The notes beneath the pieces are model-generated. The model saw nothing but the letters and a program-made list of their open reading frames with translations, searched no databases and was not told the DNA's origin. Of a stretch of DNA of 39,144 nucleotides, positions 7,395 through 39,144 are shown piece after piece. The translations under genes were made by a program, and so were the position numbers. Numbering within the stretch: position 1 is the stretch's first letter; each line of letters starts with the position of its first letter. This DNA is from Chromatiaceae bacterium (lineage in GTDB: Bacteria; Pseudomonadota; Gammaproteobacteria; Chromatiales; Chromatiaceae). The DNA is taken from positions 1 to 39,144 of the forward strand of contig JAHEJD010000020.1 of NCBI GenBank assembly GCA_024639005.1. The letters run 5' to 3'.

Positions 7395-7469
7395 AACGCC
7401 GCGTCGGTTACGGCCTGCCCGCCAATTTTTTTGCCCTGACGATCTTCCTGTCTTCGTCAAAAGACTGAC

Positions 7470-7490
7470 GGCTCGGCCAGAGCCTTTCTT
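7470..7490 (+). terminator. Possible intrinsic terminator between the peptidase and fliL
   Basis: GGCTC (7470-7474) and GAGCC (7480-7484) form a five-base-pair stem with a five-base loop, followed by TTTCTT. It lies after the peptidase gene and before the fliL promoter, where a terminator is expected. The stem is short and the T-run is interrupted, so this is a weak call. Confidence 0.35.
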
Positions 7491-7530
7491 AAGTCTCTGA
7501 AAATACAAAAATAATTTTGGCTTTCTTGCG

Positions 7531-7546
7531 TGGCACAGGGTTTGCA
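7531..7546 (+). promoter_or_regulatory. Sigma-54 (RpoN) promoter of the fliL flagellar operon
   Basis: TGGCAC (7531-7536), five bases, then TTGCA (7542-7546) is a match at every defined position of the -24/-12 consensus, with the invariant GG and GC separated by exactly ten bases. It points towards fliL, whose start is 61 bases downstream of its end. In polar-flagellated gammaproteobacteria the mid-class flagellar operons are transcribed by RpoN with the FleQ/FlrC activators, so the location is exactly as expected. The activator genes are not in the window and no activator site was identified. Confidence 0.85.
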
Positions 7547-7606
7547 GACCCAGGTGCAGCACGGTTGCGGCCGTCGACATCGGTAGCAGGGCAGGGGATG
7601 ACATCC

Positions 7607-8119: not shown

Positions 8120-8121
8120 CC

Positions 8122-9195
8122 GTGGCGAACTCAGAGCTTCTCTCGCAGGACGAGATCGACGCGCTGCTGCATGGCGTCGACACCGGCGATGTCGAGACTG
8201 GTGGCGACGAAGTCGTGGATCCCGCCGAGGCGCGGCGCTATGACTTCGCCAGCCAGGACCGGATCGTGCGCGGGCGTCTGCCGACGCTGGAGATGATTAA
8301 TGAGCGCTTCGCGCGCTATTTCCGTACCAGCCTGTTCAATATGCTGCGCCGCGGCGCGGACATCTCGGTCTCAGGCGTACAGATGCTCAAGTTTTCGGAG
8401 TTCGTACACAGCCTGTTCGTGCCGACCAGTCTGAACATCACTCGGGTGTCGCCGCTGCGCGGCAAGTCGCTGTGCGTGCTCGATCCCAAGCTGGTGTTCG
8501 GCGTGGTCGACAGTTTCTTCGGCGGCAACGGACGTTTTCATACCAAGATCGAGGGGCGGGACTTCACGCCGACCGAGGTGCGCGTCGTCCAGATGCTGCT
8601 CGGCATCGCCTTCAAGGACCTCAAGAAGGCCTGGCAGCCGGTGCTGGATGTCGACTTCGAGTACATCTCCTCGGAGGTCAATCCGCAGTTTGCGAATATC
8701 GTGTCGCCGTCCGAGGTCGTGGTGGTGACCACATTCAATGTCGACCTCGAGTCCGGCGGCGGCGATTTCTACATCTGCCTGCCCTATTCCATGCTCGAGC
8801 CGATCCGCGAGCTACTCGATGCCGGCGTGCAGAGTGACCGCGGCGACCGCGATGAGCGCTGGGAAATGGCGATGCGCGAAGAGGTGATGGGCGCCACGGT
8901 CGAGATAAGCAGCATCCTCGGCGAGGCGACCCTGCCGCTGCGCGTGCTCGCCGGTCTGCAGGTGGGCGATGTCATCCCACTCGACGTCAACGAGACCGTC
9001 GAGGTATGCGTCGAGGAACTGCCGATCTGCCGTGGTGAGCTGGGTGTCCACAACAACAGTTATGCCGTGAAGGTTTCCGAATGGATCGAGCGCAGCAGCG
9101 CACGCCAGCTGCACGACCTGCTGCGGCCACAACAGAAGCGCGCTACCGATATGGTGCCGCAGAAACGGACTACGACGGGACGGGGTACGCCATGA
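8122..9195 (+). CDS. fliM: Flagellar motor switch protein FliM
   Basis: FliM is the middle layer of the C-ring rotor and the docking site of phosphorylated CheY. The 357-residue product opens with the CheY-binding peptide LLSQDEIDALLHGVD (about 6-20), followed by the middle domain that contacts FliG and by a C-terminal SpoA domain that joins FliN. The GTG at 8122 starts two bases after the fliL stop; there is no strong ribosome binding site, suggesting translational coupling. The last four bases overlap the fliN start (ATGA). Length is slightly above the usual 320-340, mainly through a basic tail. Confidence 0.95.
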   Translation: MANSELLSQDEIDALLHGVDTGDVETGGDEVVDPAEARRYDFASQDRIVRGRLPTLEMINERFARYFRTSLFNMLRRGADISVSGVQMLKFSEFVHSLFVPTSLNITRVSPLRGKSLCVLDPKLVFGVVDSFFGGNGRFHTKIEGRDFTPTEVRVVQMLLGIAFKDLKKAWQPVLDVDFEYISSEVNPQFANIVSPSEVVVVTTFNVDLESGGGDFYICLPYSMLEPIRELLDAGVQSDRGDRDERWEMAMREEVMGATVEISSILGEATLPLRVLAGLQVGDVIPLDVNETVEVCVEELPICRGELGVHNNSYAVKVSEWIERSSARQLHDLLRPQQKRATDMVPQKRTTTGRGTP

Positions 9196-9614
9196 GCGAC
9201 GAACAGACGAGTGCCGACGAGGCGTTGGCAGACGAGTGGACCACGGCACTGGAAGAGGAGACTTCGGGTGGCGATGTTGACGACGACAGCGCGGCGCAAG
9301 CGGCACGCTTCGACGAATTGCAGCCCGGGGGTAAAGACGCCGCATCCGGTGACGTCAAGATCGATGCGATCCTGGATGTGCCGATTACGATTTCGATGGA
9401 GATCGGCCGTTCGCGCATTAACATCCGCAACCTGCTTCAGCTCAATCAGGGCTCGGTGGTGGAGCTCGATCGCCTCGCCGGTGAGCCGATGGATGTGCTG
9501 GTCAACGGCACGCTGATCGCGCAGGGCGAGGTGGTGGTAGTCAACGAGAAGTTCGGGATCCGCCTGACCGATATCGTCAGTCCGGCAGATCGCGTGAAGA
9601 AGCTCAGCGGTTGA
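9192..9614 (+). CDS. fliN: Flagellar motor switch protein FliN
   Basis: The 140-residue product has a long acidic N-terminal arm (about 1-55) and a C-terminal SpoA (surface presentation of antigens) domain beginning at ILDVPITISMEIGRS, with LLQLNQGSVVELDRLAGEP and GEVVVVNEKFGIRLTDI. It forms the lower C-ring with FliM and helps to dock export-apparatus cargo. The upstream frame is open to 9081, but the ATG at 9192 overlapping the fliM stop gives the standard protein, about the length of E. coli FliN. Confidence 0.95.
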   Translation: MSDEQTSADEALADEWTTALEEETSGGDVDDDSAAQAARFDELQPGGKDAASGDVKIDAILDVPITISMEIGRSRINIRNLLQLNQGSVVELDRLAGEPMDVLVNGTLIAQGEVVVVNEKFGIRLTDIVSPADRVKKLSG

Positions 9615-26053: not shown

Positions 26054-28165
26054 ATGGGCACCCTGTTGAAGTGGCTGTTTGGCCTGATCATCGTCCTCGT
26101 ACTGCTGGTCGCAGCGGCGGTGGTCGTGTTACCGATGGTGGTCGACCCGAATGACTACAAGCCGCAGATCGTAGCCGCGGCCAAGGACAAGCTGGGTCGG
26201 GACCTGGTGATCGAGGAGGACCTTAGCCTGTCGGTCTTTCCCTGGTTGGGCCTAGAGACTGGTGGCGTGCGGATTGGCAATGCGTCCGGTTTTAAGGCCG
26301 AGTGGTTTGCCGAGATCGACCGACTGGGCCTGAAGGTGAAACTCATGCCGCTGTTGAGCCGCCAGGTGGAGGTCGACAATGTGCTGGTCAAGGGCCTGCG
26401 CCTCAACCTGGAAAAAGATGCCAAGGGCAAGACCAACTGGGAGGATCTGGCGGCGCAGCAGGACAAGCCCGCTCCGCCCGATGCCGCCGAGCCGGCGGCC
26501 GATCAGGGGCCGCCGATCGCGATCAGTGTGCAGGGAATCGAGATCGAAGATGCCCGGGTCAGCTGGGAGGATCGCCAGAGCGGGCAGCAGTACGTGGTCG
26601 ACGGGGCGCGCCTGGTGACTGGGGCGCTGGCGCCCGGCGTCGCGGTGCCGATCGAGGCCGCGATGGCCTTCACCAGCAGCAAACCGGCGATGACCCTCAA
26701 GGCCAAACTCGATGCCAGCGTTGAGAGCGATGCCGATCTCAAGGCGTTTCGTATCACCGGCCTCGTGCTGGCACTCGACGCGGCGGGTGAGGGGCTGCCG
26801 AAAGGCGGCGCCGAGCTGACGCTGAAGACCGACCTCGCGGTCGACACCAAGGCCGATACCCTGCAGCTGGATCAACTCGAGATCAGCGGCCCGGCGCTGG
26901 CCGCGCGTGGCGAGCTGGCAGTGACCGCGCTGCAGACCAACCCGGCCGCCAAGGGCAAGCTGAGCATCGCCGAGACCAATCTGAAGACGCTCGCGTCGAT
27001 GTTTGCCAGCCCGATCGAGACGACCGATCCGGAAGCGATGACCCGCGCCAGCGGCGACCTGGTATTCGCTTACGCCGACGGCGCAGTGAAGCTGGATCCG
27101 CTGAAGATCCGCCTGGACGAATCGCAGCTCGATGGGCACCTGCATGTGCTGGACCCGAACGGCCCCGTCGTGCGCACCAAGCTGGCGCTGGATCAGATCG
27201 ACCTCGACCGCTACATGCCGCCTGCGCAGGACAAGCCGCAGGGGGCAGCGCCGGCGGCGAAGGCGGCCGAGTCCACGCCGCCGCCCGCCGCGGATCCGTT
27301 CGCGGCGCTGCGCACTCTGGACTTTGCCGGTGAGTTCACCATCGGCCAGCTCAAGGTCGGCAACGCGCGGATGAGCAATGTCGCCACCAAGGTGGTGTCG
27401 AAGAAGGGCGTGCTTACTGTGGATCCCATCGCGGCAAAACTCTACGAGGGCGCGTTCGCCGGTCGCATCGTCGTCGATGCCAGCGGCAAGCAGGCGAAGC
27501 TGCAGGCCAAGAATCGCCTGACCAATATCCAGGTGGGGCCGCTGCTCAAGGACGTGGCTGACGAGGAGCGGCTGCTCGGGCGCGGCGAGGTGGAGGTCGA
27601 TGTGCGCATGGTCGGTCTGAGCGAAAGCGAGATCCGGCGCAGCCTGAACGGCAACGCGCGTTTCGCCTTCAATGACGGTGCCTACAAGGGGGTGAATATC
27701 GCCCAACTGATCCGCGATGCCAGCAGCCGCCTCGGTCTGGGCAGCGACAAGATCGACACCGGTACCCCGGGGCAGACCGATTTTGCAGAGCTGTCCGGGT
27801 CGTTCAAGATGACCAATGGGGTGATAGAGAATCGCGACCTGCGGGCCAAGTCGCCGCTGTTGCGCATCGATGGCAAAGGCGAGGTAGACCTGCCCAAGGA
27901 TACCGTCGACTATCTGATCACTACTAAGTTGGTCGGGTCGCTCGCCGGCCAGGGCGGCAAGGCAAAGGATGAGCTGGCGGGTGTGCCGATACCGGTGCGG
28001 GTGTCCGGCCCGCTGACCAAACCCAGTTTCCGCCCCGACCTCGAGGCCGCGCTCAGTGCCAAGGCCAAAGCGGCGATCGAGGAGCAGAAAGTGGAGCTGC
28101 AAAACAAGGCGGAAGAGAAGGTGAAAGAGAAACTGGACGGTGTGCTAAAGGGGCTGTTCAACTAG
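26054..28165 (+). CDS. AsmA family protein
   Basis: The 703-residue protein has one N-terminal membrane helix (about 5-30) followed by VDPNDYKPQIVAAAKDKLGRDLVIEEDLSLSVFPWLGL, the AsmA N-terminal signature, and ends with the AsmA C-terminal domain (KGVNIAQLIRDASSRLGLGS, TDFAELSGSFKMTNGVIENRDLRAKSPLLRIDGKGEVDL). AsmA-like proteins are inner-membrane anchored, mostly periplasmic bridge-like proteins tied to outer-membrane lipid transport. An Ala/Pro-rich linker sits near residues 390-415. It ends four bases from the convergent methyltransferase gene with no visible terminator between them. Confidence 0.9.
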   Translation: MGTLLKWLFGLIIVLVLLVAAAVVVLPMVVDPNDYKPQIVAAAKDKLGRDLVIEEDLSLSVFPWLGLETGGVRIGNASGFKAEWFAEIDRLGLKVKLMPLLSRQVEVDNVLVKGLRLNLEKDAKGKTNWEDLAAQQDKPAPPDAAEPAADQGPPIAISVQGIEIEDARVSWEDRQSGQQYVVDGARLVTGALAPGVAVPIEAAMAFTSSKPAMTLKAKLDASVESDADLKAFRITGLVLALDAAGEGLPKGGAELTLKTDLAVDTKADTLQLDQLEISGPALAARGELAVTALQTNPAAKGKLSIAETNLKTLASMFASPIETTDPEAMTRASGDLVFAYADGAVKLDPLKIRLDESQLDGHLHVLDPNGPVVRTKLALDQIDLDRYMPPAQDKPQGAAPAAKAAESTPPPAADPFAALRTLDFAGEFTIGQLKVGNARMSNVATKVVSKKGVLTVDPIAAKLYEGAFAGRIVVDASGKQAKLQAKNRLTNIQVGPLLKDVADEERLLGRGEVEVDVRMVGLSESEIRRSLNGNARFAFNDGAYKGVNIAQLIRDASSRLGLGSDKIDTGTPGQTDFAELSGSFKMTNGVIENRDLRAKSPLLRIDGKGEVDLPKDTVDYLITTKLVGSLAGQGGKAKDELAGVPIPVRVSGPLTKPSFRPDLEAALSAKAKAAIEEQKVELQNKAEEKVKEKLDGVLKGLFN

Positions 28166-28169
28166 CCGC

Positions 28170-29009
28170 CTATTTCTCGGCCGTCAGGTAACAGATCCAC
28201 CCGGCGTCTGCCTCGGCCTCGGTCGCCGGTTTGAAATCGCCGTCCGGCTCGCCGTGCTTGTCCCAACCCTGCCAGTACACTGTTACCCGGCCGAATCCAC
28301 ACTCCGCCAGCAGATCGCGGACCTCCGGAAGCGTCCAGAGGCGCCAATCGTAATCGAATGCGTGCCGCATCTTTGATCCGTCAGGGAAGGCGAAATGGAT
28401 GTGGCAGATCAGGTGGTGGGTGATGGGGTTGAAGGCAGCCTGTTCCCAAATATAGGTAAAGCCCTCGCCGCCATCGTCTATCTCGCGCTCCTCGACGATC
28501 TCCGTGTGGCTGTCGTAGCCGCCATAGGCATCGAGGAAGAAAACGCCGTCGTCCTTCAGCGCGGCGTGGACCCGCTTGAAGTAGCGCGCGAGCGTGGCGC
28601 GGTCCTGCAGCAGCCAGTAGCTGAAATTCATCGCGGAGATGATGTCGGGCTGTTCGGTCTCGACCTCGAGCACGTTCTCGCGCAACAGTGTGATGCGCTG
28701 ACGCTGCTTCTTACTGAGCCGGTTGAGGTTGTTTGCGCGGCCCCACTCGAGCACCTCGGGATCCAGGTCCACCCCGATTGCGCGCCGTTTGTTACCGCGT
28801 TTTACCCACTCGCAGCAAACGGTGGCGGTGCCGCAGAAATCCTCGCGGAACACGCGGGCACGTCGCTTGCGCAGACTTTTGAAGGTATCTTCAACAAAAT
28901 CGATCTCGGCCTCGGCACACTGCACCGAGAGTTCGTAGAGCTGATGTCGGTCTGCCGTCGAGGCAATACTGGGTCTGGATTTCTTGCGACGCTTGGCCTT
29001 CTTTGTCAT
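28170..29009 (-). CDS. SAM-dependent methyltransferase, class I
   Basis: The 279-residue product starts with a strongly basic stretch (TKKAKRRKKSR) and contains a Rossmann-type methyltransferase: motif I REDFCGTATVCCEW, the acidic loop GVDLDPEVLEWGR, a motif IV region PDIISAMNFSYWLL and post-motif GVFFLDAYGGYD. The frame is open further upstream to 29066, but the ATG at 29009 with GGAGAAG upstream is the better start. Substrate cannot be predicted; the basic start suggests nucleic acid or ribosome contact, which is only inference. It is convergent with asmA and divergent from the YbaK-type gene. Confidence 0.8.
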   Translation of the reverse strand: MTKKAKRRKKSRPSIASTADRHQLYELSVQCAEAEIDFVEDTFKSLRKRRARVFREDFCGTATVCCEWVKRGNKRRAIGVDLDPEVLEWGRANNLNRLSKKQRQRITLLRENVLEVETEQPDIISAMNFSYWLLQDRATLARYFKRVHAALKDDGVFFLDAYGGYDSHTEIVEEREIDDGGEGFTYIWEQAAFNPITHHLICHIHFAFPDGSKMRHAFDYDWRLWTLPEVRDLLAECGFGRVTVYWQGWDKHGEPDGDFKPATEAEADAGWICYLTAEK

Positions 29010-29176
29010 CGCGATTACTTCTCCGTTACTGTCCGGAAGGCTGACTATACTTGAATGCAGCAGCAAAGCCCCGCAGCCGCTACCCGTGCCGCGGCAGGGC
29101 CTGGTCTCCCTAAATGAAAGGCGATGCTGCGGGCGGGGCGAATAGCCCGGGTGAAAATCAAATTGGAGGAATCAAC

Positions 29177-29647
29177 ATGGGTGTTGCAACGACACTCCAG
29201 GACTATCTGGAGAGCCGTGGCATTGCTTACGATGTAGTCGAGCATCCACATACCAACTCTGCGATGCGCGCAGCCGAGGCGGCGCATGTCCCAGGTGATC
29301 AAGTGGCCAAACCAGTTCTACTCGGCGATGATCACAGTTATCTCTTGGCGGTAATCCCGGCGACCCACCGGCTCGAGCTGGACCGTCTAAACCAGATGCT
29401 GGCGCGCAACCTGGAGATGCTCCCCGAAGATGAGATCGAGGCGACGTTTTCCGACTGTGAACGGGGTGCGATTCCCGCGGTCGGCGAACCCTATGGTGTC
29501 GACGTCGTGATCGATCCGGCCTTAATGCACCAGCCCGATGTGTACTTCGAGTCGGGCGACCATGAACATCTGATCCATATGCACGGAGAGGTATTTCGCG
29601 GCCTGATGGAACATGCGCCGCGGGCGCATCTCAGCCATCACCTCTGA
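29177..29647 (+). CDS. YbaK/ProX-type aminoacyl-tRNA deacylase
   Basis: The 156-residue protein is a YbaK/EbsC-like editing domain acting in trans on mischarged tRNA. Visible are the start LQDYLESRGIAYDVVEHPHT, the conserved lysine in QVAKPVLLGDDH, and ERGAIPAVGEPYGVDVVID, which corresponds to the G-x-x-P-F-G region of the family. The amino acid edited cannot be deduced. The frame is open to 29114 but TTGGAGGA directly before the ATG at 29177 fixes the start. A strong GC hairpin follows the stop codon. Confidence 0.85.
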   Translation: MGVATTLQDYLESRGIAYDVVEHPHTNSAMRAAEAAHVPGDQVAKPVLLGDDHSYLLAVIPATHRLELDRLNQMLARNLEMLPEDEIEATFSDCERGAIPAVGEPYGVDVVIDPALMHQPDVYFESGDHEHLIHMHGEVFRGLMEHAPRAHLSHHL

Positions 29648-29658
29648 CCCCGGTGAGA

Positions 29659-29681
29659 GCGGGCGCCCTTATTGCGCCCGC
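29659..29681 (+). terminator. Strong GC hairpin after the YbaK-type gene
   Basis: GCGGGCGC (29659-29666) and GCGCCCGC (29674-29681) form an eight-base-pair all-GC stem with a seven-base loop, eleven bases after the stop codon. No T-run follows, so termination would be inefficient or factor-dependent; mRNA 3-prime protection is an alternative. Confidence 0.5.
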
Positions 29682-29764
29682 GACCTGTCTGGTTTAACCT
29701 CTCGCGCCTCGTTGTTGTGCGATGGGCGGGTTCGTCTCTTGAGCCGGCGCGCAAGCAAGGACCC

Positions 29765-29857
<93 letters not shown>

Positions 29858-29979
29858 TTGTATCATAAAAACATATAGTTAAGTCCAATTTTTTAGCAAG
29901 TATAAAATCCCTCGGTACGGTTTGATTTAGCAAGCTTTCCCAAGCGATTGCCCGCATGATCGATGCAATTCGATTTCAT

Positions 29980-30093
29980 GGAATTGGCCAGGTACTTCGC
30001 CATCGCAGCCCACAGTCCACTAGCATCTACGCCAAGGTAGATCTCACTGCACCTCGGGCGTTGGCCATGACTTGGCCCGGAGGTGCGCGATGA
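29980..30093 (+). pseudogene. Tyrosine recombinase relic, C-terminal end only
   Basis: One plus-strand frame reads GIGQVLRHRSPQSTSIYAKVD and then LTAPRALAMTWPGGAR before a TGA at 30091-30093. This is the C-terminal catalytic end of a tandem-type tyrosine recombinase: the LRHRS...T.IYAKVD block carries the H/R region and the nucleophilic tyrosine (codon 30028-30030). Nothing upstream in the frame resembles the rest of the enzyme (a stop lies at 29923), so only the 3-prime end survived. The TGA overlaps the ATG of the next relic (ATGA), as in trios of recombinase genes (RIT elements). Confidence 0.75.
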
Positions 30094-30519
30094 ACACCCT
30101 ACGCGAAGCCCTGCAGGAGTGCCTTGATCTGCGTCGCAGCCTGGGCTTCAAGATGCGCGATGCCGGCTTGCTACTGCCCCGGTTCGTCAGCTTCATGGAA
30201 CAGCGGCAGGCCGTACACATCACCACCCATCTGGCGCTCGAGTGGGCGCAACGTCCATCGGTACAACCCGCAGAATGGGCCAGGCGTCTTTGTTTTGTGC
30301 GCGGCTTTGCCCGACACCGCAGTGCCACCGATAACCGAACGGAGGTTCCTCCGGTGGGCCTTTTGCCGCATCGGTCCACTCGAGCAAGACCTTACCTGTA
30401 CACCGAGCAAGAGGTATAGCAGTTGCTGGATGCGGCACTGGAATTGCCCGTGACCTGGCCGTCGACCACGTTGAGGGGTTTGGCTTTGTTTTCACTGTCG
30501 GCGTCGGTCGCACAATAAG
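30090..30519 (+). pseudogene. Tyrosine recombinase relic, N-terminal half with in-frame stop
   Basis: From the ATG at 30090 the frame encodes an integrase N-terminal SAM-like domain (MNTLREALQECLDLRRSLGF, then the core-binding segment FVRGFARHRSATDNRTEVPPVGLLPHR). A TAG at 30417-30419 interrupts it after YLYTEQEV; reading on gives QLLDAALELP, the expected continuation, so the stop most likely arose from a CAG codon. Similarity fades after about 30450 and the frame ends at 30519 without the catalytic domain. It is coupled to the preceding relic by a four-base overlap. The remnant is clearly non-functional. Confidence 0.75.
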
Positions 30520-30799
30520 GCAGCCGCTCGAGCGTAAGATGAAGGGCTTCTGTGTCGAGGTCCAACAGGACCTTTCCTGCATAGGTTTTGGCAGTCTCCA
30601 ATCGCTCATGATCGAAGCTGTCGGGTAGCGGCACAGCGAATCCGAAACTTAGTGCATGGATTGAAATGGCAGCCCGCACGCGCTCATCCGTGTTCCTGTC
30701 GGATTTCTCGCTTTCCACTTCACAGGCATTATCCGTGCGACGAATGTCAATCGCACGACCTCGCCGACTCGCGGTAAGACCATCTGTCCCCTGCAAGCG
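30520..30799. other. Orphan sequence between the recombinase relic and the Mla-like unit
   Basis: No recognisable gene is seen here. A minus-strand frame from a TTG at 30796 runs 134 codons to 30392 and contains a plausible-looking segment (LPDSFDHERLETAKTYAGKV), but its last third is antisense to the recombinase relic and I know no family that matches. It starts three bases after the lipoprotein stop, so it could be a broken sixth gene of the minus-strand unit; equally it may be chance. Confidence 0.25.
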
Positions 30800-31723
30800 T
30801 CACCGATGAATTGATTCCGCTGAAGAGTCTCCGGCCTCGATCTTGCGCAAAATAGCGTCCGCCTCTTTTGTCAGGGCCGCGTCGCCGCTTTGTTTTCCCA
30901 GGTTCATGGCGCGGCGAAGCCAGTCCTGGGCGTTAGGTTCGGCACGTTGCGCCGCACTGCGGCCAGCGCGAAGCAGGTAGTTGGCCGCGGGCTGTAGGCG
31001 GCCGGCTTGCTCGGCGAAGCCGCCCGCGGTCGCGAGCGCGCGCACCATGCCGCGATAGTCGCGCTCGACGCCCCGCAGATCGGCCGCCTCATCCAGCAGA
31101 CGCAGGGCGCCGTCGATGTCGCCCTCGAGCCCGAGCAGCCTACCTTGCAGTTCCAGGTAATCTGCTCCGGGACCGACGGCCGTATCGCCCAGCATGGCCG
31201 CGATGTGTTCGCGAAGTGCTGGCAGTGCCGAAAGGTCGGCGGCGATCAAGCCTGCCACAAAGTGCGCCCTGGATAGGGTGGCGGGATTCGCCTCGCGGTT
31301 CTGCAGCAACGCAGACAGCGTGGCCTGTGCCCGCTCGAGATGGCCTGCCCGGTAGTGAATTGTGCCGATGAGGAGCTGCAGCGCCGGGTCGACAGGGAGC
31401 CCGCGTCGCCTGCGCTCGGCGTCGGCTAGATCGGTCTGGGTCAGTGCCGCGCTGTAGTCGCCGAGATACGTCCTGCAGAGCGCGAGATTGAAGCGGGCGC
31501 CGATGATGCCGACTGGTGTATCTTCGGCCAGCGCCGCTTGCAGGACGGCTTCATAGAGCGTCGCGGCCTGACCGTACCGATGTTGGTCGAAGGCCAAACG
31601 GGCCGAGCGATCGAGGGATTCGTGCTCGCTGAGCGGTGCCTGCTCCCGCTCCGCTGTAGCACCACAGCCCCCAAGCATCAGGCCCGCGACCAGCAGGCCG
31701 GCCGGAAAGAACGCTTTTGTCAC
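30800..31723 (-). CDS. TPR-like lipoprotein of the Mla-like unit
   Basis: The 307-residue product has a lipoprotein signal peptide with lipobox LGGC (Cys20) and then helical hairpins resembling tetratricopeptide repeats (for example FDQHRYGQAATLYEAVLQAAL and GDYSAALTQTDLADAERRRR). It should be anchored in the outer or inner membrane, facing the periplasm. The GTG start at 31723 overlaps the MlaD-like stop by four bases, so it is the fifth member of the operon. MCE operons often end in an outer-membrane auxiliary lipoprotein (ABC_trans_aux type); this one has a TPR-like body instead. I infer it acts as the periplasmic or outer-membrane partner. Confidence 0.7.
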   Translation of the reverse strand: MTKAFFPAGLLVAGLMLGGCGATAEREQAPLSEHESLDRSARLAFDQHRYGQAATLYEAVLQAALAEDTPVGIIGARFNLALCRTYLGDYSAALTQTDLADAERRRRGLPVDPALQLLIGTIHYRAGHLERAQATLSALLQNREANPATLSRAHFVAGLIAADLSALPALREHIAAMLGDTAVGPGADYLELQGRLLGLEGDIDGALRLLDEAADLRGVERDYRGMVRALATAGGFAEQAGRLQPAANYLLRAGRSAAQRAEPNAQDWLRRAMNLGKQSGDAALTKEADAILRKIEAGDSSAESIHR

Positions 31724-32775
31724 GGGCGAACCTCCTGTGGCGGCAGCCGCCCCCCCGTCGCGGGCGGCGCGCCGTCCCCGCCCAGCAGCCAGCTGCCGCG
31801 CAGCTGGCGCAGCAGCCCCTCCAGCTCCGCGAGCGTCTGTTGGGTCATGCCAAGCAGGACCGGGATGTTCGCCGTCGTCTCGCCGATGTCGCGGGTGATC
31901 GCGGGTAATTGAGGTGCGGTCCTTCGCAGGTCGGCCATTACCAAATCGAGCGATGCCAGCACTGATTTCACGCTGTCGCTGATCTCCGGCAGGTCCCTGC
32001 CCTGGGCATTGATCACTTTCGACAGCGCGGTCACCTGCGAGGCTGCCGCCTGCAATTCCTCGAGGATCGGTGCGAGGCGTGCCACGGCCGCATTGGCGGC
32101 GCTCATAAACCCGTCCAGCTCGCTTGCGGTGCGCTCATCACTGAGCAGCCGGCCCATCGCGCCCTCGCCACGTTCGATCCGAGTCGTCATCGTGTTGAGA
32201 TCTGCAAGCATCAACTGGACATCGCCCTCCGGGTTGGCGAAACGTTCGGTGATGTCGCCCAGCGCTGTCATCGTCCGCTCGGTCTGCTCGAGGATCGGTA
32301 TGACGCGGCTGCGCACGTCCTCGAGGATCTCGCCGATACTGTCGGTCGGCGCCCGGTCCGGCTTCGCCTCCAGCACGGCATAGTCCCAATCCATCGCTTC
32401 GCCGCGGCCACGTGTGATCTCGATATAGCTTTCGCCGGCGACGCCGAAAGTCTTGCGGATGACTGCCTGCGAATCGCGACGCACGAAAGGCGCCATCGAG
32501 CCGGTCAGACGCGCCTCTGCGTGAATATTCTGGTCCGGGTCGATCACGATCCGAAGGACCTTGCCGGCCGGTGTGCCGAGCACCTCGATCTTCGCGCCTT
32601 CGGCAAGGCCGAACAGACCGTCATCGGGCAGCACCAGGCGCAATGTTTTGCCGGGATCGAACAGCTCGTGCAAGGCTTCGGCCTTGATCAGACCCAACAG
32701 CAAGAGCACGAGCGCCACCAGTACGGTCGCGCCCAGCAGCGTGCGGTAGCGGCGGCTCTGGCTTGAGTCTTTCAT
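31720..32775 (-). CDS. MlaD/MCE-family lipid transport protein
   Basis: The 351-residue protein has an N-terminal membrane helix (about 13-31), one MCE domain (about 42-122, with LFGLAEGAKIEVLGTPAGKV and FGVAGESYIEITRG) and a long helical C-terminal region (about 145-330). MCE proteins form hexameric rings or tubes that carry lipids through the periplasm. The frame is open upstream to 33039, but the ATG at 32775 overlaps the stop of the ABC gene by four bases and places the membrane helix at the start. The long C-terminal helices are closer to needle-forming MCE proteins than to compact E. coli MlaD (about 180 residues). Confidence 0.85.
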   Translation of the reverse strand: MKDSSQSRRYRTLLGATVLVALVLLLLGLIKAEALHELFDPGKTLRLVLPDDGLFGLAEGAKIEVLGTPAGKVLRIVIDPDQNIHAEARLTGSMAPFVRRDSQAVIRKTFGVAGESYIEITRGRGEAMDWDYAVLEAKPDRAPTDSIGEILEDVRSRVIPILEQTERTMTALGDITERFANPEGDVQLMLADLNTMTTRIERGEGAMGRLLSDERTASELDGFMSAANAAVARLAPILEELQAAASQVTALSKVINAQGRDLPEISDSVKSVLASLDLVMADLRRTAPQLPAITRDIGETTANIPVLLGMTQQTLAELEGLLRQLRGSWLLGGDGAPPATGGRLPPQEVRP

Positions 32776-33479
32776 GCGGTCGCGCCCAGCTGGAGTAGCC
32801 GGCTCCCGGCGATCCGGTAGCGCCGGTTCGCGGAAATCCCGCGCTCCTCCAGCAGACTGCGGTTGCTTGTAAACCAGATTACGGCACCGTGGCGATGCCG
32901 CACCTGCTGTACCGCATCGATCAGCGGCGCGAATGTTCGGGCCTCCGTGGATTCGATCGGATGCTCCAGAATGACAAGCTGCGGGCGGCCCAGGAAGGCC
33001 CGCACGCATGCAGCGCGTCCGAGATCGGACTCCGAGCACTGGTGCGGCAGTAGGGTTGGGATCCCCGGTAGGCCAAAGCCTAAAGCGAGCTCGCTAGCCC
33101 ATTGGCGCATGATTTCTTCGGCCAGCACGGTGTGATGTCTCAGCGGCAACAACAGGTTCTCCATCACGGATCGGTTCTCCAGCCAGTTCCCACGGCTCAT
33201 GACCCTGCCAATACTGCCGCGCAACCGGCAGGCTTCGTCTGGACCCAGGTCCGCCCAGGCGACGCCCAGGAAGCGCACCTCGCCACCGCCGGCCAAGCCC
33301 AGCAAGGCATCCGCAACGGCTGCGCTTTGCCCAGTCGTGGGCGAAAACACCAGGTGCAGCTCGCCAGCTTGCACGCGCAGGTCGTCCGCAACTGCCAACC
33401 CCACCCGGGGCGCAGCGAAGGACAGACCCGAGGTCTCCATGATTGGGTGGCCTGCGGGCGGGTCATCAGATACGCGCAT
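32772..33479 (-). CDS. Degenerate MlaF-like ABC protein, probably ATPase-inactive
   Basis: The 235-residue protein aligns along its whole length with MlaF-type ABC ATPases, for instance GNWLENRSVMENLLLPLR at the Q-loop region, yet all catalytic motifs are altered. Walker A reads SPTTGQSA, so the P-loop lysine is Gln51; the Q-loop Gln is Ser95; the signature LSGG is CSES (148-151); Walker B plus catalytic Glu reads VILEHP, giving Glu172 and His173; the D-loop Asp is lost (EST); the H-loop His is Asn206. The reading frame is intact, and it abuts the permease gene and overlaps the MCE gene, so it is maintained as a protein. It probably acts as a structural subunit or depends on another ATPase. 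Confidence 0.85.
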   Translation of the reverse strand: MRVSDDPPAGHPIMETSGLSFAAPRVGLAVADDLRVQAGELHLVFSPTTGQSAAVADALLGLAGGGEVRFLGVAWADLGPDEACRLRGSIGRVMSRGNWLENRSVMENLLLPLRHHTVLAEEIMRQWASELALGFGLPGIPTLLPHQCSESDLGRAACVRAFLGRPQLVILEHPIESTEARTFAPLIDAVQQVRHRHGAVIWFTSNRSLLEERGISANRRYRIAGSRLLQLGATA

Positions 33480-34316
33480 CTACAACACCGCCGATACCGC
33501 TATCCCAACCAGTAAGGTTGCCAGCAGGGAGTAGAGGAAGCCACTGGGCAGCGCGCGGCGCACGCCCAGTGCACTCGGATCGACCCTCAATCCAAGCCAG
33601 ATCGCGATGTATCCGATGATGAAGCCGGTGATGATCGGTTTGACAACCAGCAGGAGATGATCACCCAGGCCCATTTTCGACAACACCGCATCGGCAAACT
33701 CCACCGGGGATATCGTGGTGAGGCTAGCGAGCAAAGCGGCGAGATACCCGGACCAAAGTGCCGTATGCAGAAAGATCATCGTGAGCGCGAACAATGCGAG
33801 TGCCGTCGCGAAGCAGCGCGGAATGGCGATGTGGTCGGTGGGGTCTATGCCACAAGACTCGAGCATGCGAATCTGTCCGCCGACCTTGAGATGGCCGACC
33901 TCGTCAAGCATGACTGAACCACTGCGGCCAATCACTATCAGCGCCGTGACGACGGGCGAGATCTCGCGGATTAGCACCAGTACCAAAAAGTCGCCGACCA
34001 CTCCCTCCTGTCCTGTCAACTTCGACCAGTACATGATCTGTAGTACCAGACCCAGACCAACGAGCAGGGCGGTCACGATGACCGCGGGTATGGCACGGAC
34101 ACCCGTCAGGTAGAAAAAGCGCTCGAATTCCACGCGCATCGTCCTGCGCCAGTTGCCCGGTCCCAGGCCGCGAGCCAGCGTCGCAGAGAGGTCCCCCGAG
34201 AAGAGCAGGGTAGCCGAGGTGGCGTCGATTAGTCGCTGGCCAAACCGGCCCAGCAGGCCTGGGCCATCGGCGGCGGGTCCGCCGGCTGCGGTCAAACGGT
34301 GTGCTGGTGGCTTCAC
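33480..34316 (-). CDS. MlaE-type ABC permease of an MCE lipid transport system
   Basis: The 278-residue inner-membrane protein shows the MlaE/permease core REISPVVTALIVIGRSGSVMLDEVGHLKVGGQIRMLESCGIDP followed by IAIPR, with about five to six membrane segments (for example AIPAVIVTALLVGLGLVLQIM). The N-terminal amphipathic region (LLFSGDLSATLARGL) is slightly longer than in MlaE. The GTG at 34316 overlaps the sensor gene stop by four bases; its own stop abuts the ABC gene start. Unlike its ABC partner it keeps the family core motifs, so lipid-handling function seems preserved. Confidence 0.88.
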   Translation of the reverse strand: MKPPAHRLTAAGGPAADGPGLLGRFGQRLIDATSATLLFSGDLSATLARGLGPGNWRRTMRVEFERFFYLTGVRAIPAVIVTALLVGLGLVLQIMYWSKLTGQEGVVGDFLVLVLIREISPVVTALIVIGRSGSVMLDEVGHLKVGGQIRMLESCGIDPTDHIAIPRCFATALALFALTMIFLHTALWSGYLAALLASLTTISPVEFADAVLSKMGLGDHLLLVVKPIITGFIIGYIAIWLGLRVDPSALGVRRALPSGFLYSLLATLLVGIAVSAVL

Positions 34317-36793
34317 AGGCGCCCCCCCAGCAGGTACGTCGAAAACTCCCCTACGCCTTCGAGGTAATGGTGACCGCGCAGCTGAAACAGATAATGATCG
34401 CGCAACAGGTCGTAGACAGACTCCGTTGCATGAATCGTCCCTGGCGGAGCGGAATCGGCCATCGCGTAGGCCGTGTGTGCCACCTCACCCCACAGGTTGA
34501 ATGAACGTCCATCACGATCGACCAGGGTGCCAATCGCCGGTCCCACGTCCATGCCCAGATGGAAAGCCAGGTGGGCATGCTGTTCAGCAAATACGCGCTC
34601 GCAAGCGGCCTGCGTGGCCAGCGCAAACTCGGCGAGGCACGCCGTAGCCTGATGGACGTCCGCGGACGGATCGGCGGCAGCGACCACCCGATCAGTAAGA
34701 AACTTGAGATAGGTAATGCCGTGTTCGGTGGCTGCCGCATCGATCTGCCCGAGCAGGCGGGCGATGGTCGATTCGCCGGATCGGTCGTCGGCCGATCGTG
34801 CCAGCGCCAGCGCGTCGCTGAACCGCAGCGACACGAATGCCAGTTGATCAATGCGCTGTACGCCGTCAGCTCCCACGGTGTCCGCACCATCCGGGAGCTT
34901 GGCCGCAAATGCTGTAGCGCGGCGTGCGCCCAGCCCCGCGTCGATGTCCAATTCGCGATCGCGCGGTTCGGCCTGCTGCGCCGGTTCGATATCGTGTGCC
35001 TTTGCGTCCCCGGCCGGTGGCATGGCCAGCACCGTGCCAGGCGTAACATTGGCGGCCTGGCGGATTGCCATCAAATTGGCGATCGCCCGGGCAAACCGCT
35101 GCACCTGGTTCGACCACTCGCTGCGACGGCCGTCCTCGAGCCAAAGGACGCCGGTCACCTGGCCGTTTACCCTGACGGGCAGGGACAGCAAGGCCTGGCA
35201 GCCCAGCGGGGCGAGGTAGCTTCGGTACAGGGATACGAGGCGTTCGTCTTCGCTGGTTGCGACGTCGCTGACGGCGCTTTCTGTCTGCAGCCATTCGAAA
35301 AGGCCGGGATGATCTGATCTGTCGAGTGTCGCGCCATGCGTATGGCCCTCCGTCTGCTGGTCGAAGCTGTCGATACAGACCAGGGCGTCGCCCGATGGAC
35401 GCAGACGCCACAGGCTCGCGCGGCGAACGCCTGCGGATCGCGCCACGGCCTCGGTCACCTCGGCGAGGCTATCGGTCACACCGTCCGCAAACAGCGTCGA
35501 CTGCGATGCCAGCGTGCCGAAGGCCTCACCCTGCGCGGCTAGCTGCGCCTGGCGTTCCAAGATGGTAATGGCCTCTTGGTCGGCACGCAGCCCCTGGCGG
35601 ACTACGAGCCCGGCAAGTAGGCTTGCCAGGGCGACGACCGCCAGGCCCATCCCCAGGCTGTCGCGCACATTCTCCGCTACGAAGCCGACGAAATCGTCCT
35701 CGGGGACGATCATCAGGATCGACCAGTCGCGCGGCAGCAGATGGTTCAGCGATGACGCCGAGCTGATGTAGCGGCGGTCGCCCATCTCGAAATCGTGGCG
35801 ACCGTGTCCCTCGACGCGGTAGCGGTCAAACGCGCGGCTAACCACCGGCTCGCCGATGTCATCGACCCGCAGTAACCGCAGCTCGCCGCCGGGACCCTCC
35901 GTCACCAATGCCGTCCGCGGGTGTGCAATCACCCGCCCCTCGTCGTCGATGATCAGCGCCAGCCCGGTGTCGCCGATGGCGAGCGTGGCGAGGAACCGAC
36001 TAAGGCTGTCCAACTCGACGTCGGTGCCGACGACCGCAACAAGTTCCCCGTTGGCATCCACATAGGGCGCCGAAACTGTGATCCCTTCGGCCTTGGTGGT
36101 GAAGAAGGGGTAGACATCTGTCCAGAACAGTCCCCTGGCTTCTGCGGCACCGATGAACCACGGACGTCCGCGCGGATCATAGCCATCCCAGGGTGCTTGC
36201 ACGTCGGACAACACCTCGCCCTTTGCGCCATGGCGCGTTAGCTGCATCACGGGCGCACCGGTGGATCCATCCGGCCTGCGGATCGTCTTGGTCTCCAGGC
36301 CGCGCTTTTCACCATCCAGATAACGTCGCACCATAAAAAACTCGCCGGCCGGATTGCCGATGAGCACGCTGGTGAGCTGCGGCGTCTGGTTAAGAATTCC
36401 GGTCGCCAACTTCTCGGCGAGATCGAGCCGCACGCTCAACAAGCTTTCGTCTGCAAGCAAGTCCCGGGTAATCCGGACGACTCCCGGGATAGGCCCCAGG
36501 TAGGCAGCGATCTCGGTTTCGATGCGGCTTTGCAGGTTGACTATGACGTCTGCGGACAGGGCCAGAGCATCGGCACGCATCACCTTGAAATCGTGGACTG
36601 CGTTCCCGATCAGTGCCGCCAGCAGCATTGCGACTGCGGCGATCGGCAGCCAGATGCGCCGGCGCCGGCGTCGTTTGATTGCCTGGGCCTCCTCGAATCC
36701 TACTACCAGATGTGCTGTCGCGTGCAAACCTACCAAGAAGCCCTCCGCAGTGGATTCGTGCTGCAGTGTGTTGTTCCCGATCTGCAGAGGCAA
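34313..36793 (-). CDS. dCache-GAF membrane sensor with degenerate class III cyclase domain
   Basis: Counting from the TTG at 36793 (826 residues): an RRRRRR run, membrane helix (47-63), periplasmic double-Cache domain (about 68-370, with WFIGAAEARGLFWTDVYPFF), second helix (about 381-398), GAF domain (about 435-575), disordered linker and a C-terminal class III nucleotide cyclase fold (about 648-826, HLGMDVGPAIG...FNLWGEVAHTAYAM). The two metal Asp (D660, D701) and a substrate-binding Lys (K697) remain, but the D/T position is Asn766, the transition-state Asn is His773 and the transition-state Arg is Ala777, so catalysis is doubtful. The start is uncertain: the TTG has no ribosome binding site. 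Its stop overlaps the permease start by four bases. Confidence 0.85.
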   Translation of the reverse strand: MPLQIGNNTLQHESTAEGFLVGLHATAHLVVGFEEAQAIKRRRRRRIWLPIAAVAMLLAALIGNAVHDFKVMRADALALSADVIVNLQSRIETEIAAYLGPIPGVVRITRDLLADESLLSVRLDLAEKLATGILNQTPQLTSVLIGNPAGEFFMVRRYLDGEKRGLETKTIRRPDGSTGAPVMQLTRHGAKGEVLSDVQAPWDGYDPRGRPWFIGAAEARGLFWTDVYPFFTTKAEGITVSAPYVDANGELVAVVGTDVELDSLSRFLATLAIGDTGLALIIDDEGRVIAHPRTALVTEGPGGELRLLRVDDIGEPVVSRAFDRYRVEGHGRHDFEMGDRRYISSASSLNHLLPRDWSILMIVPEDDFVGFVAENVRDSLGMGLAVVALASLLAGLVVRQGLRADQEAITILERQAQLAAQGEAFGTLASQSTLFADGVTDSLAEVTEAVARSAGVRRASLWRLRPSGDALVCIDSFDQQTEGHTHGATLDRSDHPGLFEWLQTESAVSDVATSEDERLVSLYRSYLAPLGCQALLSLPVRVNGQVTGVLWLEDGRRSEWSNQVQRFARAIANLMAIRQAANVTPGTVLAMPPAGDAKAHDIEPAQQAEPRDRELDIDAGLGARRATAFAAKLPDGADTVGADGVQRIDQLAFVSLRFSDALALARSADDRSGESTIARLLGQIDAAATEHGITYLKFLTDRVVAAADPSADVHQATACLAEFALATQAACERVFAEQHAHLAFHLGMDVGPAIGTLVDRDGRSFNLWGEVAHTAYAMADSAPPGTIHATESVYDLLRDHYLFQLRGHHYLEGVGEFSTYLLGGRL
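36677..36694 (-). promoter_or_regulatory. Strong Shine-Dalgarno before an ATC codon of the sensor gene
   Basis: On the minus strand GAGGAGG (36694-36688) is followed eight bases later by ATC (36679-36677), in frame with the sensor gene, and the next codons give KRRRRRR and the first membrane helix. Starting here would give a 788-residue protein with a standard sensor N-terminus. ATC is a very rare start codon, so either it is used, or an upstream TTG is, or the site is a coincidence. Confidence 0.4.
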
Positions 36794-37319
36794 AGTAAGC
36801 GAACATAGGGCGATCGCTTCGGCACGACCGGGCTCCTGTTCGACTCTGCGCTTCTAAAAAAATACCGCATTTTCGCCACAATAGCAGCGAGCGAGCAGAC
36901 ATCAGGTAAATTCGTTTCGAACGGGCTTGTCTTGACCGGGGAGAGCGGCTGGCAAAGTCGGAGACGTTGGGCCACCCGCTACCCGAAACAGAATCCCCGC
37001 GGTTTTGCTGACACAAGTATCGCAGCATCGGTTTTGAACGCTGGTTGCGAGAAACTAAGTTTCGACCGCGGGGCCGTGCGCGTTGGGATGACACCAGCTG
37101 GAAAAATGGTGTTCGGCTGTGGTCCAGCCGATATTTCAGAAATAGGCGGGCGGCTTTCAGAAAGCTAGAAGTTGGCTAAATGACCTTAGATTCTTTCCAG
37201 GGGATCGCTCAAGCCTACCTTAGCGCGCCCCGGGGAAGGTCAGCTCCGAAGTGTGCCCGGTGATCGTCAGCGCTGTACGTTAGGTGGATTGCTGCATATT
37301 GCTTCAAGGAGACTGACTC
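36794..37319. other. Intergenic region between divergent sensor and beta-lactamase-like genes
   Basis: These 526 bases hold no gene I can support; short frames here match nothing known. The stretch is somewhat richer in A/T than its neighbours around 36850-36920. Notable are two identical 9-base palindromes TTTCAGAAA (37134-37142 and 37155-37163), 21 bases centre to centre, and an inverted repeat GAAAC-TAA-GTTTC (37051-37063). Promoters of both divergent genes must lie here but I could not define convincing -35/-10 pairs. AAGGAG (37306-37311) is the ribosome binding site of the beta-lactamase-like gene. Confidence 0.5.
37134..37163. repeat. Paired palindromes TTTCAGAAA, possible operator
   Basis: Two copies of TTTCAGAAA lie at 37134-37142 and 37155-37163. 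Each is embedded in a longer palindrome (ATTTCAGAAAT and GCTTTCAGAAAGC). The 21-base centre spacing equals two helical turns, the arrangement expected for two dimers of one DNA-binding protein. Position is about 157 bases before the beta-lactamase-like start and 340 bases before the sensor gene start. Confidence 0.35.
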
Positions 37320-38051
37320 ATGCGAAAGTGTGTTTTTTTATCGCTGCCCGTGACTTTTTTGCTGCGGGCCTCATGCGCCGCTCCGGCCGCCGGCGACAAT
37401 ACGTCTGCACCACAAGAGCTTGGCCGCCTGTCTGACGATGTGGCCGCCCAGCTCGACAAGTTTCTGCAGTCGAATGTCTTCACCAATGGCGCCGATCCAA
37501 AGACACATGCACCCGGTTTGATCCTGCTGGTGGGTACGCCGGGTGGCCGCTATCTGCGCGCCGCCGGCGTCGCCAGCCTGGAGAAGCGCACGCCGTTGAA
37601 GGTCGACGATCGGCTGGAGATCGGCAGCAACAGCAAATCCTTCACCATTGTACTGTTGCTGCAGCTTCAGGAGGACGGCGTATTGACGCTGGACGATCCC
37701 CTAAGCAAGTGGCTGCCCGACTGGGCGGCCAGGATTCCCAACGGCGATCGTGTGATTTTGCGCCATTTGGCACAGCATACGAGCGGCATATGGGATTACG
37801 GCGATCCGCTCATCGGCGCGGCGGCCAACGATCCGAAAAAACTTGAGCAAGGCTACAGTCCGGAACAGCTGGTGCAGTATGCAATCGACAACGGGGTCCC
37901 TGACTTCGCGCCTGGCGAAGTTGAGAAGTTCCTAATAGTGATAAAAAATCTGCGGATTTTCCAAGAGCTAGTGCCTTTAGGGTGCTGGGCGAATAGAGCG
38001 CTAATCCAAGGGCAATCCCCTGTCCAGCAGCTGAATGGGTTGAGCCATTGA
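37320..38051 (+). pseudogene. Truncated serine beta-lactamase-family (class C-like) gene with foreign tail
   Basis: The frame encodes a signal peptide (about 1-22) and the first part of a beta-lactamase/DD-peptidase-like serine hydrolase: IGSNSKSFT supplies the Ser103-x-x-Lys106 catalytic pair, followed by LDDPLSKWLPDW, LRHLAQHTSGI and PDFAPGE. In the family, PxFxPG(E) is followed directly by a YSN motif; here the homology stops at residue 200 (about 37919) and 43 unrelated residues end the frame. The second catalytic motif and the whole C-terminal half are missing, so the product cannot be an active hydrolase. AAGGAG lies eight bases before the ATG. It was probably cut by an insertion or deletion. 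Confidence 0.75.
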
Positions 38052-38160
38052 GAAACGCACCGGAGGCCAACTCTGTCCTAACCGTGGGACGCGAGAGATT
38101 CAGCGTTGGTGTGCCGGAGCGTCCGCCCAAAGGCAAAAGGCGCTCGCCTTTAAAACAAAC
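37920..38160. other. Unassigned sequence joined to the truncated beta-lactamase gene
   Basis: The 240 bases after the break in the beta-lactamase frame show no gene that I recognise on either strand. They contain a small hairpin AAAATC-TGCG-GATTTT (37945-37960) near the junction and a second one at 38136-38151. It may be the remnant of a mobile element or material from another locus; no inverted-repeat ends or target duplication could be identified by eye. Confidence 0.4.
38136..38151. terminator. Hairpin upstream of the lysozyme-inhibitor gene
   Basis: AAAGGCG (38136-38142) and CGCCTTT (38145-38151) form a near-perfect palindrome that folds as a six-base-pair stem with a GCTC loop. It lies 21 bases before the ATG at 38173. 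Short T-runs follow the stem on either strand, so it could terminate transcription weakly in both directions or shape the 5-prime leader of the next mRNA. Confidence 0.35.
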
Positions 38161-38172
38161 GGAGACTTTTCG

Positions 38173-39042
38173 ATGAATAGTCGGGCAGCCGTTCTTTGCA
38201 TCATTGCGGCGGTCTATGCCAACGCAGGCCACGCCAAACAGTCTGCAACGGAACCGATGGTGCTGTGTTCCGATGCTTGGCAACAGTCCATCGACGAGGC
38301 CGTGGTAACTGGCGACGGTCAAGGCCACGGTCCGGATATCGGGTCCGACGAATGGAAGTCAGTGGTCGAGTTCAAACTCGGTATTCGAGACACGCCGGGC
38401 ATTCCAGGCCGCGACAGCGACGCCTGGTGCGGCCACATCGATCAGCTCGTGCGCAGTCGCGGCGAGTCTGTCGGGAAAGGCGGGCACATTGACGCATCGG
38501 CGCACGAAACAGGGCCTTCGTTTTCCTGTGACAAAGTAAAGGCAGGCGGCATTGAGGCGATGATCTGCGCAGACAAGGATTTGTCGGTGCTTGACCGCAA
38601 GCTCGCCGGCGTCTATGCGGCGGCATCCAAGGTGGCCGTAAACGAACACCCCCCGGTCCTCAAGGCGGAGCAACGCGGCTGGCTCAAGGGACGCAACGAG
38701 TGCTGGAAGAGTGATGACGAGCGCAAATGTGTCGGGGAGGAGTACGAGCGGCGCATTGCGGAATTGCAGGCAAGGTATCGGCTCGTATCGCATAGCGGTC
38801 CGTTCTTTTATGCGTGCGACGGAAACGCCGCCAACGAGGTGGTTGCGACGTTTTTCGAAACCGATCCCGCAACGTTGATTGCCGAACGTGGTGACGGGGT
38901 CTCGCTGATGTTCCGGCAGCCCAGCGCAAGCGGGAGTAAGTACCAGGGCCGTAACGAAATCTTCTGGGAACATCAGGGTGAAGTGCTCGTTACCTGGGGC
39001 TATCGTGCGCCGCAGATGCGCTGCGATCAAAAGGCACCCTAA
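38173..39042 (+). CDS. Periplasmic lysozyme-inhibitor-like protein, LprI plus MliC domains
   Basis: The 289-residue product has a signal peptide (about 1-21), an unassigned Cys-containing N-terminal region (about 25-110), an LprI/DUF1311 domain (about 115-202: SFSCDKVKAGGIEAMICAD, LDRKLAGVYAAA, EQRGWLKGRNECW) with cysteines 119, 132, 177 and 186, and a C-terminal MliC-like domain (about 207-286: FFYACDG, then SASGSKY at 251-257, and a final Cys284). In MliC/PliC proteins the SxSGxxY loop enters the lysozyme active site. The ATG has GGAG eight bases upstream. It probably protects the cell wall against C-type lysozyme; this is inferred from the domains. Confidence 0.8.
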   Translation: MNSRAAVLCIIAAVYANAGHAKQSATEPMVLCSDAWQQSIDEAVVTGDGQGHGPDIGSDEWKSVVEFKLGIRDTPGIPGRDSDAWCGHIDQLVRSRGESVGKGGHIDASAHETGPSFSCDKVKAGGIEAMICADKDLSVLDRKLAGVYAAASKVAVNEHPPVLKAEQRGWLKGRNECWKSDDERKCVGEEYERRIAELQARYRLVSHSGPFFYACDGNAANEVVATFFETDPATLIAERGDGVSLMFRQPSASGSKYQGRNEIFWEHQGEVLVTWGYRAPQMRCDQKAP

Positions 39043-39144
39043 GACATGCCGGGGCATACACGAAATCGCGGTGAAGAACGCACCGACGAAGGGAACGATT
39101 GTAGGACACAGGCTGGAGCCTCGATCGGGTGCCTCGGCAACCAT
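39043..39144. other. Window end, no gene seen
   Basis: After the lysozyme-inhibitor gene there is a short palindrome ATGCC-GG-GGCAT (about 39046-39057) without a T-run and then sequence open on the minus strand to the edge. Nothing in these 102 bases is recognisable as coding. Confidence 0.4.

Follow-up and report, generated by a model that had tools for sequence, protein, structure and literature searches.

MCE lipid transporters pose open questions about their energy source, direction and control, and a locus of five genes in the genome of a Chromatiaceae bacterium raises another: can such a transporter be governed by a receptor when its own motor has apparently lost the active site? The locus occupies positions 30,800–36,793 of a 39,144-nucleotide stretch (contig JAHEJD010000020.1, hereafter the window) of a genome in 155 contigs. 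It encodes a sensor, an MlaE-type permease, a protein resembling an ATP-binding cassette (ABC) ATPase, an MCE protein and a TPR lipoprotein (Table 1). On the sequence evidence, we propose with evenly balanced confidence that the five genes encode one envelope machine, a receptor-gated MlaE-MCE lipid path in which the ATPase-like protein (below, the pseudo-ATPase) would act as a mechanical adaptor. Evolution appears to have stripped the motor of its active site and permanently established a receptor alongside; this arrangement was kept across two bacterial classes.

The initial annotation described five genes on one strand joined by four-base overlaps or direct abutment, and the open reading frames (ORFs) and junctions read from the DNA agree with it. 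The sensor and permease genes share a GTGA overlap of four bases, the TAG of the permease gene abuts the ATG of the ATPase-like gene, and four-base overlaps follow between the ATPase-like and MCE genes (ATGA) and the MCE and TPR genes (GTGA). The same annotation concluded from this packing that the proteins are made in roughly equal amounts; abutting genes alone do not demonstrate equal production. The TTG start of the sensor is uncertain: the genome carries a second module copy (L005), in which the ORF begins at a codon further downstream. For the MCE gene, the listed ORF begins earlier, and the likely ATG overlaps the stop codon of the ATPase-like gene.

Conservation of the five-gene arrangement

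The case made in the initial annotation depended on joint conservation of the genes in other genomes, and this was found. Sixty loci were fetched and compared together with the window; the order sensor, permease, ATPase-like protein, MCE protein and TPR protein on a single strand was observed in 61/61 loci, and all five genes were present in 59. Because 52 of the 60 fetched loci were obtained via the sensor and eight via the ATPase-like protein (seven) or the permease (the second copy, L005), the count is partly conditioned on the query. Since the genes recur in order in every locus, their arrangement is not due to chance. The incomplete loci are L078, which stops at a contig edge, and L121 (G1240, genome of 2.0 Mb), a decayed remnant at 6053–9607 with partial sensor, permease and ATPase-like genes, where the TPR gene was not found. 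Short junctions (overlaps of 4 or 1 nt) were found between sensor and permease genes in 54/60 cases, between ATPase-like and MCE genes in 47/61 and between MCE and TPR genes in 52/57.

A search with the sensor profile revealed the sensor in 5 of 9 genomes of the same genus (own genome included) and in one other genus of the family, 6/210 genomes in all; the module was not found at 1e-60 in the remaining four same-genus genomes (G001, G005, G007, G008). Outside the class, the sensor was detected in two families, in 48/150 genomes (33 of 102 genera) of the first and in 5/17 genomes of the second; some of these carriers have small genomes with a GC content of about 36 percent, so that one of the two families is likely to be Acetobacteraceae. 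The ATPase-like profile matched 46 of the same 150 genomes, all of them among the 48 with a sensor (thresholds 1e-50 for the sensor and 1e-30 for the ATPase-like protein; the reverse search scored at most 18 candidates per genome). No pseudo-ATPase without a sensor was found in these 150 genomes. A sensor without a pseudo-ATPase was found in two of the 48, at a contig end in both, in line with the expectation of the initial annotation that the sensor is not usually found alone. The co-occurrence gives a Fisher p of 1e-36, a value that ignores relatedness.

The identity of the ATPase-like protein to that of the window falls to 30 percent while the gene order holds across the two classes. Pairwise distances of the five protein families correlate at 0.66–0.94 (56 of 61 loci), as expected under joint inheritance. 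In a midpoint-rooted tree of the same number of loci (56/61), the copies of the window's family are nested within the diversity of the other class, which suggests that the module was transferred between classes. Wider samples, own or seed genomes included, gave a sensor in 1/369 genomes of the class, 6/398 of the phylum, and 3/142 and 3/190 of the other class; as the class samples (369, 142 and 190 genomes) added no carriers beyond those known, the distribution is patchy. With the L069 sensor as query (the window's own sensor was not used), no plasmid-borne relatives were found at 1e-40. The named relatives of the window's ATPase-like gene belong to Candidatus Accumulibacter regalis, meliphilus and appositus (74–80 percent identity). 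Accumulibacter is known for phosphorus removal in wastewater plants.

Table 1. Genes of the module and regions of the sensor; positions are those of the window
Feature	Position	Strand	Description
Sensor (transmembrane receptor)	34313..36793	(-)	826 amino acids (aa) counted from TTG; transmembrane helix (TM) 1, periplasmic dCache_1, TM2, cytoplasmic GAF, degenerate class III cyclase domain
Periplasmic sensing region	35657..36598	(-)	aa 66-379, between hydrophobic windows aa 47-65 and 380-398 (hydropathy); Pfam dCache_1 at aa 203-292
Amino-acid-type dCache motif	36020..36181	(-)	Y205, R210, W212, F213, Y228, D258, corresponding to PctA Y121, R126, W128, Y129, Y144, D173
GAF domain	35063..35470	(-)	aa 442-577, Pfam
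Cyclase-like domain	34328..34771	(-)	aa 675-822 by Pfam; K697 and D701 kept, WGD changed to WGE, Asn to H773, Arg to A777
MlaE-type permease	33480..34316	(-)	278 aa; without STAS match; many invariant residues in the coupling-helix region
Pseudo-ATPase	32772..33479	(-)	Fold of an ABC nucleotide-binding domain; no consensus at Walker A, signature, Walker B and H-loop
MCE (MlaD-domain) protein	31720..32775	(-)	351 aa; TM helix, single MCE domain, low-confidence helix prediction over about 190 residues
TPR lipoprotein	30800..31723	(-)	LGGC lipobox, +2 Gly

Proteins of the module

The ATPase-like protein scored only 15 bits against Pfam ABC_tran (E 0.036), which is under the cut-off. A 15-row profile built on it matches ABC ATPases in the PDB at 1e-21, and its AlphaFold model is a complete nucleotide-binding domain (NBD) fold. 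The Walker A lysine was present in 0 of 60 scorable pseudo-ATPases vs. a Walker A in 27/27 control ATPases. The controls also carry the SGG signature and the Walker B DE by pattern in 26/27 cases, the exception being L015, which has neither by pattern. In the pseudo-ATPases the ABC signature is lost, with Asp at its fifth position in 60/60 scorable proteins; at the Walker B position Glu replaces Asp in 57/61 and Asp is found in 2/61, and the H-loop His occupies its own column in only 6/61. The glycine-rich P-loop has disappeared, and the model places only three residues between the strand 41–45 and the helix 49–59. The family has its own invariant residues instead (W75, G136, P138, G139 and P141) and forms, in a small tree, a branch separate from the MlaF-type ATPases. 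By motif the protein looks catalytically dead, as the initial annotation had supposed for both this protein and the cyclase domain of the sensor. The ratio of nonsynonymous to synonymous substitution rates (dN/dS) is 0.07–0.37 in 31 of 35 comparisons of module genes, the other four being saturated. In G1150 and G1233 one TGA was counted in the ATPase match, and the spans used here are open.

The permease was attributed to the MlaE family (PF02405, E 3e-42), and its profile matches the MlaE structures of the PDB (6xbd at 4e-23). No STAS domain was found in the window's permease by Pfam (E up to 1). Many residues of the coupling-helix region are invariant across nine permeases; in MlaE this helix, between TM2 and TM3, touches MlaF (PMC7790496). 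In one locus (L086) the permease gene has a single in-frame stop within an otherwise intact module.

The MCE protein contains an MlaD domain (PF02470, E 3e-8) and one hydrophobic window near the N-terminus, and its model shows a beta-rich domain at residues 43–139. Its best match among solved structures was chain I of PDB 13hr, a 312-residue Mce/MlaD protein (E 6e-5). The TPR protein gave a TPR_12 match (E 2e-6) of 28.2 bits, below the cut-off of 30.1; a strict lipobox pattern was found in 49/59 TPR proteins, and the +2 residue is never Asp among those 49. The initial annotation spoke of repurposed Mla parts. The permease, a relative of MlaE, and the fourth protein with its MCE domain fit this description, but the ATPase-like protein stands on its separate branch.

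The sensor matches Pfam dCache_1 (E 2e-17), GAF (5e-13) and Guanylate_cyc (9e-15). The dCache_1AA motif that binds amino acids consists of Y, R, W, Y/F, Y and D at PctA positions 121, 126, 128, 129, 144 and 173 (PMC10104139). The window's sensor has the expected residue at 6/6 positions, spaced as in PctA except for one inserted residue. With aromatic residues taken as interchangeable, the full motif was found in 24/60 sensors, namely in 9/9 of the Accumulibacter type, in the copy from the other genus, in 5/5 of the smaller outside family and in 9/45 of the larger; its first five positions, with the Asp disregarded, are present in 39/60. This distribution allows us to predict that the sensors of the first three groups probably bind amino acids, and that in many of the remaining sensors the ligand class is probably altered.

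The cyclase domain is clearly homologous to class III cyclases (profile against PDB cyclases, down to 1e-36). In the window it has the Lys and the second metal Asp, and His and Ala replace the catalytic Asn and Arg. Among 61 sensors the Asn was found in one and the Arg in four, both together in none; the second metal Asp is present in 11/61. By the HMMER register the first metal Asp is Arg in the window. An active class III nucleotide cyclase, which would have two metal Asp, a Lys/Asp base pair, Asn and Arg, was rejected on the missing Asn and Arg; by motif this domain also looks catalytically dead. The scanned members (the window, L069 and L070) all retain the GAF domain.

Proposed mechanism and alternative explanations

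In the machine proposed here, two permeases and two pseudo-ATPases would sit in the inner membrane beneath a hexameric MCE ring and needle, the distal tip of which might dock with the outer membrane close to the TPR lipoprotein. The dCache domain would bind a small ligand (in Accumulibacter, probably an amino acid or something similar), and the signal would run via the GAF domain and the dead cyclase domain, now a binding module, to the pseudo-ATPase; direct contact of these two domains with the dead ATPase would be the simplest route. As a mechanical adaptor, the latter could use the retained coupling helix to hand the signal on to the permease and so open or close the path, along which lipid would flow down its gradient or be pulled by another system. 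A wider claim, that throughout this old family the ABC subunits are pure allosteric adaptors that link a transmembrane small-molecule receptor, by way of its dead cyclase domain, to the permease, so that a periplasmic metabolite and not ATP hydrolysis by the transporter controls lipid exchange across a whole-envelope conduit, is put forward tentatively, as one we would sooner doubt than accept. The gating is directly testable because the ligand class of the dedicated receptor can be predicted (for Accumulibacter, amino acids). If lipid is indeed moved without an ATPase of its own, MlaE-MCE assemblies can serve as gated conduits, and gating without own ATP use would earn the module a class of its own; if no lipid is moved, the module would exemplify a transporter turned into a signalling assembly.

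Several observations weigh against this proposal. Two hydrophobic windows, exactly and at the set places, were found by hydropathy in only 31/59 sensors. The ligand probably differs across the family, since the position of PctA Asp173 is occupied by Asn in 32/61 sensors and by Ser in 3/61. An Asp three residues on, present in 36/61 sensors, could match the first metal Asp of the cyclase under a three-residue shift; because the assignment of this residue depends on the alignment register, the claim that the cyclase is dead rests on the Asn and Arg. In the monomer model the helical tail of the MCE protein has low confidence (predicted local distance difference test mostly <50), and past residue 141 this model is too uncertain to support a needle alone. 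The neighbours give no clue to the substrate, as within 6.5 kb no flanking family occurs in more than 18/61 loci. Finally, the genome holds MlaE-linked ABC ATPases with intact motifs, which could act in trans.

The last point favours an arrangement in which an active MlaF-type ATPase encoded elsewhere powers the permease and the pseudo-ATPase is a scaffold, a placeholder or an inhibitor that the receptor displaces or regulates. The mycobacterial MceG, encoded away from its transporters (PMC9882608), is a precedent. We regard this arrangement as unlikely, if worth keeping in mind: the pseudo-ATPase retains the full NBD fold and adjoins the permease in 61/61 loci, and since each ATP site pairs the Walker motifs of one subunit with the signature of its partner (PMC7756269), both of which are lost here, a mixed dimer would presumably hold no intact site. 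That the pseudo-ATPase itself still binds or hydrolyses nucleotide through unusual residues, the whole being a conventional ABC transporter with an added receptor, is improbable; the intact fold and the acidic residue kept at the Walker B position speak for it, and the lost P-loop and signature and the rarity of the H-loop His against it.

The flow of information could also be reversed, with the permease, the pseudo-ATPase and the MCE tube reporting the lipid state of the envelope to the receptor, whose GAF and cyclase-like domains would pass the signal to a partner, bulk lipid transport having been lost. Two enzyme-like domains dead by motif next to a retained GAF domain would suit such a role. 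We think it distinctly unlikely, because the permease and MCE genes are under purifying selection (dN/dS 0.07–0.36 in 12/14 comparisons, two saturated) and no widely shared output gene lies nearby. Clusters may persist inside a lineage, so an ordinary Mla relative could stand beside an unrelated receptor by descent or chance, without joint function. This is very improbable when the order holds across two classes at such low identity while the flanks change, and when no pseudo-ATPase lacks its receptor in 150 genomes. We retain the receptor-gated path as the working explanation.

Comparison with known systems and genomic context

The nearest known system, as described in PMC12436622, is Mpc (MpcEFDA) of Brucella and other Hyphomicrobiales, which likewise has an MlaE-type permease, an ABC-type subunit, a long MCE protein with a helical tail and a lipoprotein encoded last in the operon, lacks MlaC and was proposed to be a trans-envelope bridge. 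In that account the Mpc permease is fused to STAS, the ATPase is homologous to MlaF and belongs to a well-conserved ABC transporter, the lipoprotein is PqiC-like and the four-gene operon contains no receptor, whereas in our module the ATPase lacks active-site motifs, the lipoprotein is of the TPR type, the receptor gene comes first and the permease has no STAS match. When the permease and the TPR protein were searched against Pfam, neither a STAS fusion nor a PqiC-like domain was found for the window (E up to 1) or for L070 (E up to 0.01). The module is thus, by its sequence features, a variant of the MCE transporters that differs from Mpc in the receptor, the dead ATPase and the TPR lipoprotein.

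The MlaEFD system of Veillonella parvula (PMC10665443) shares the long MlaD, the absence of MlaA and MlaC and a proposed trans-envelope path, long MlaD proteins in general having been proposed to bridge the envelope (PMC10665443, PMC12436622). It differs in its three-part core without a receptor or a TPR lipoprotein, and no dead MlaF is mentioned in the parts of PMC10665443 considered here. Escherichia coli MlaFEDB with MlaA and MlaC (PMC7790496, PMC7367683) is similar in the MlaE family by sequence, the MCE ring protein and the NBD that contacts the coupling helix; it has, unlike the module, an active MlaF with a C-terminal extension, the MlaC shuttle and the STAS regulator MlaB, which attaches to MlaF at its helical subdomain and may control its activity (PMC7367683). 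Mycobacterial Mce1 (PMC9882608) resembles the module in its permease, MCE needle and accessory regulators, and differs in its six distinct MCE subunits and in its active MceG, the gene of which lies elsewhere. On the receptor side, dCache_1AA receptors such as PctA (PMC10104139) share all six motif positions with the window's sensor, the output of which differs: it is a degenerate cyclase domain whose gene adjoins those of a lipid transporter. This domain is homologous by profile to class III adenylate cyclases and differs from them in the two catalytic residues.

Taken as an Mla/MCE-type ABC lipid transporter, the module has a permease of the MlaE family and an MCE protein with an N-terminal anchor, and its ATPase lacks Walker A, signature, Walker B and H-loop. 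It does not have the canonical six parts of Mla, with the MlaB STAS protein, MlaC and MlaA in the operon. An ordinary Mla operon was rejected: no scorable member retains the ATPase motifs, and MlaB, MlaC and MlaA are absent from the cluster, with no Pfam match to STAS, MlaC or MlaA in the five window proteins (E up to 1). The absence of MlaB and MlaC reported in the initial annotation holds for the cluster, but the genome has two MlaC genes elsewhere. By motif or fold the module contains the dCache_1AA motif and the ABC NBD, and it is neither an active class III cyclase nor Mpc. Among the matches listed, no description of such a module was found in the open-access literature; subscription literature is mostly outside this scope, and the negative is weak evidence of novelty.

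The second complete module of the genome, L005 (contig C44, 3320–9241), has 78–88 percent protein identity to the window copy. One stretch of the sensor gene (about 34620–35419) is 92–98 percent identical in DNA between the copies, and identity in the remaining 200-base blocks of the module is 72–91 percent (one 94), a difference that suggests local gene conversion. An intact lipoprotein gene without a Pfam match lies 3' of the second copy (L005 9508–10230), and the window has a remnant of such a gene (30518–30778; last 88 residues, 52 percent identity). It was rejected as a sixth part of the module because among the 61 loci it is confined to these two. Apart from both modules, the genome has two MlaE genes.

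Sequence scans gave no usable promoter (0 promoter-like sites vs. 1.5 expected) or terminator (8 terminator-like sites vs. 4.5 expected). RNA control was rejected, as only one tRNA reached the gathering score in 28000–39144, and so was an anti-phage system, none of the five proteins having matched PADLOC at 0.001. The flanking genes vary by lineage, the commonest family occurring in 18/61 loci. In the window, a tRNA-Ser (gga) gene is located at 29765–29855, and the ORF beside it (30072–30419) appears recombinase-like by eye, without a Pfam match; together they perhaps mark the border of an element inserted beside the module. A few kb from the module, on the other strand (26054–28165), lies a gene of the AsmA family (E 2e-78) that is also YhdP-like; proteins of this kind, too, are linked to lipid transfer.

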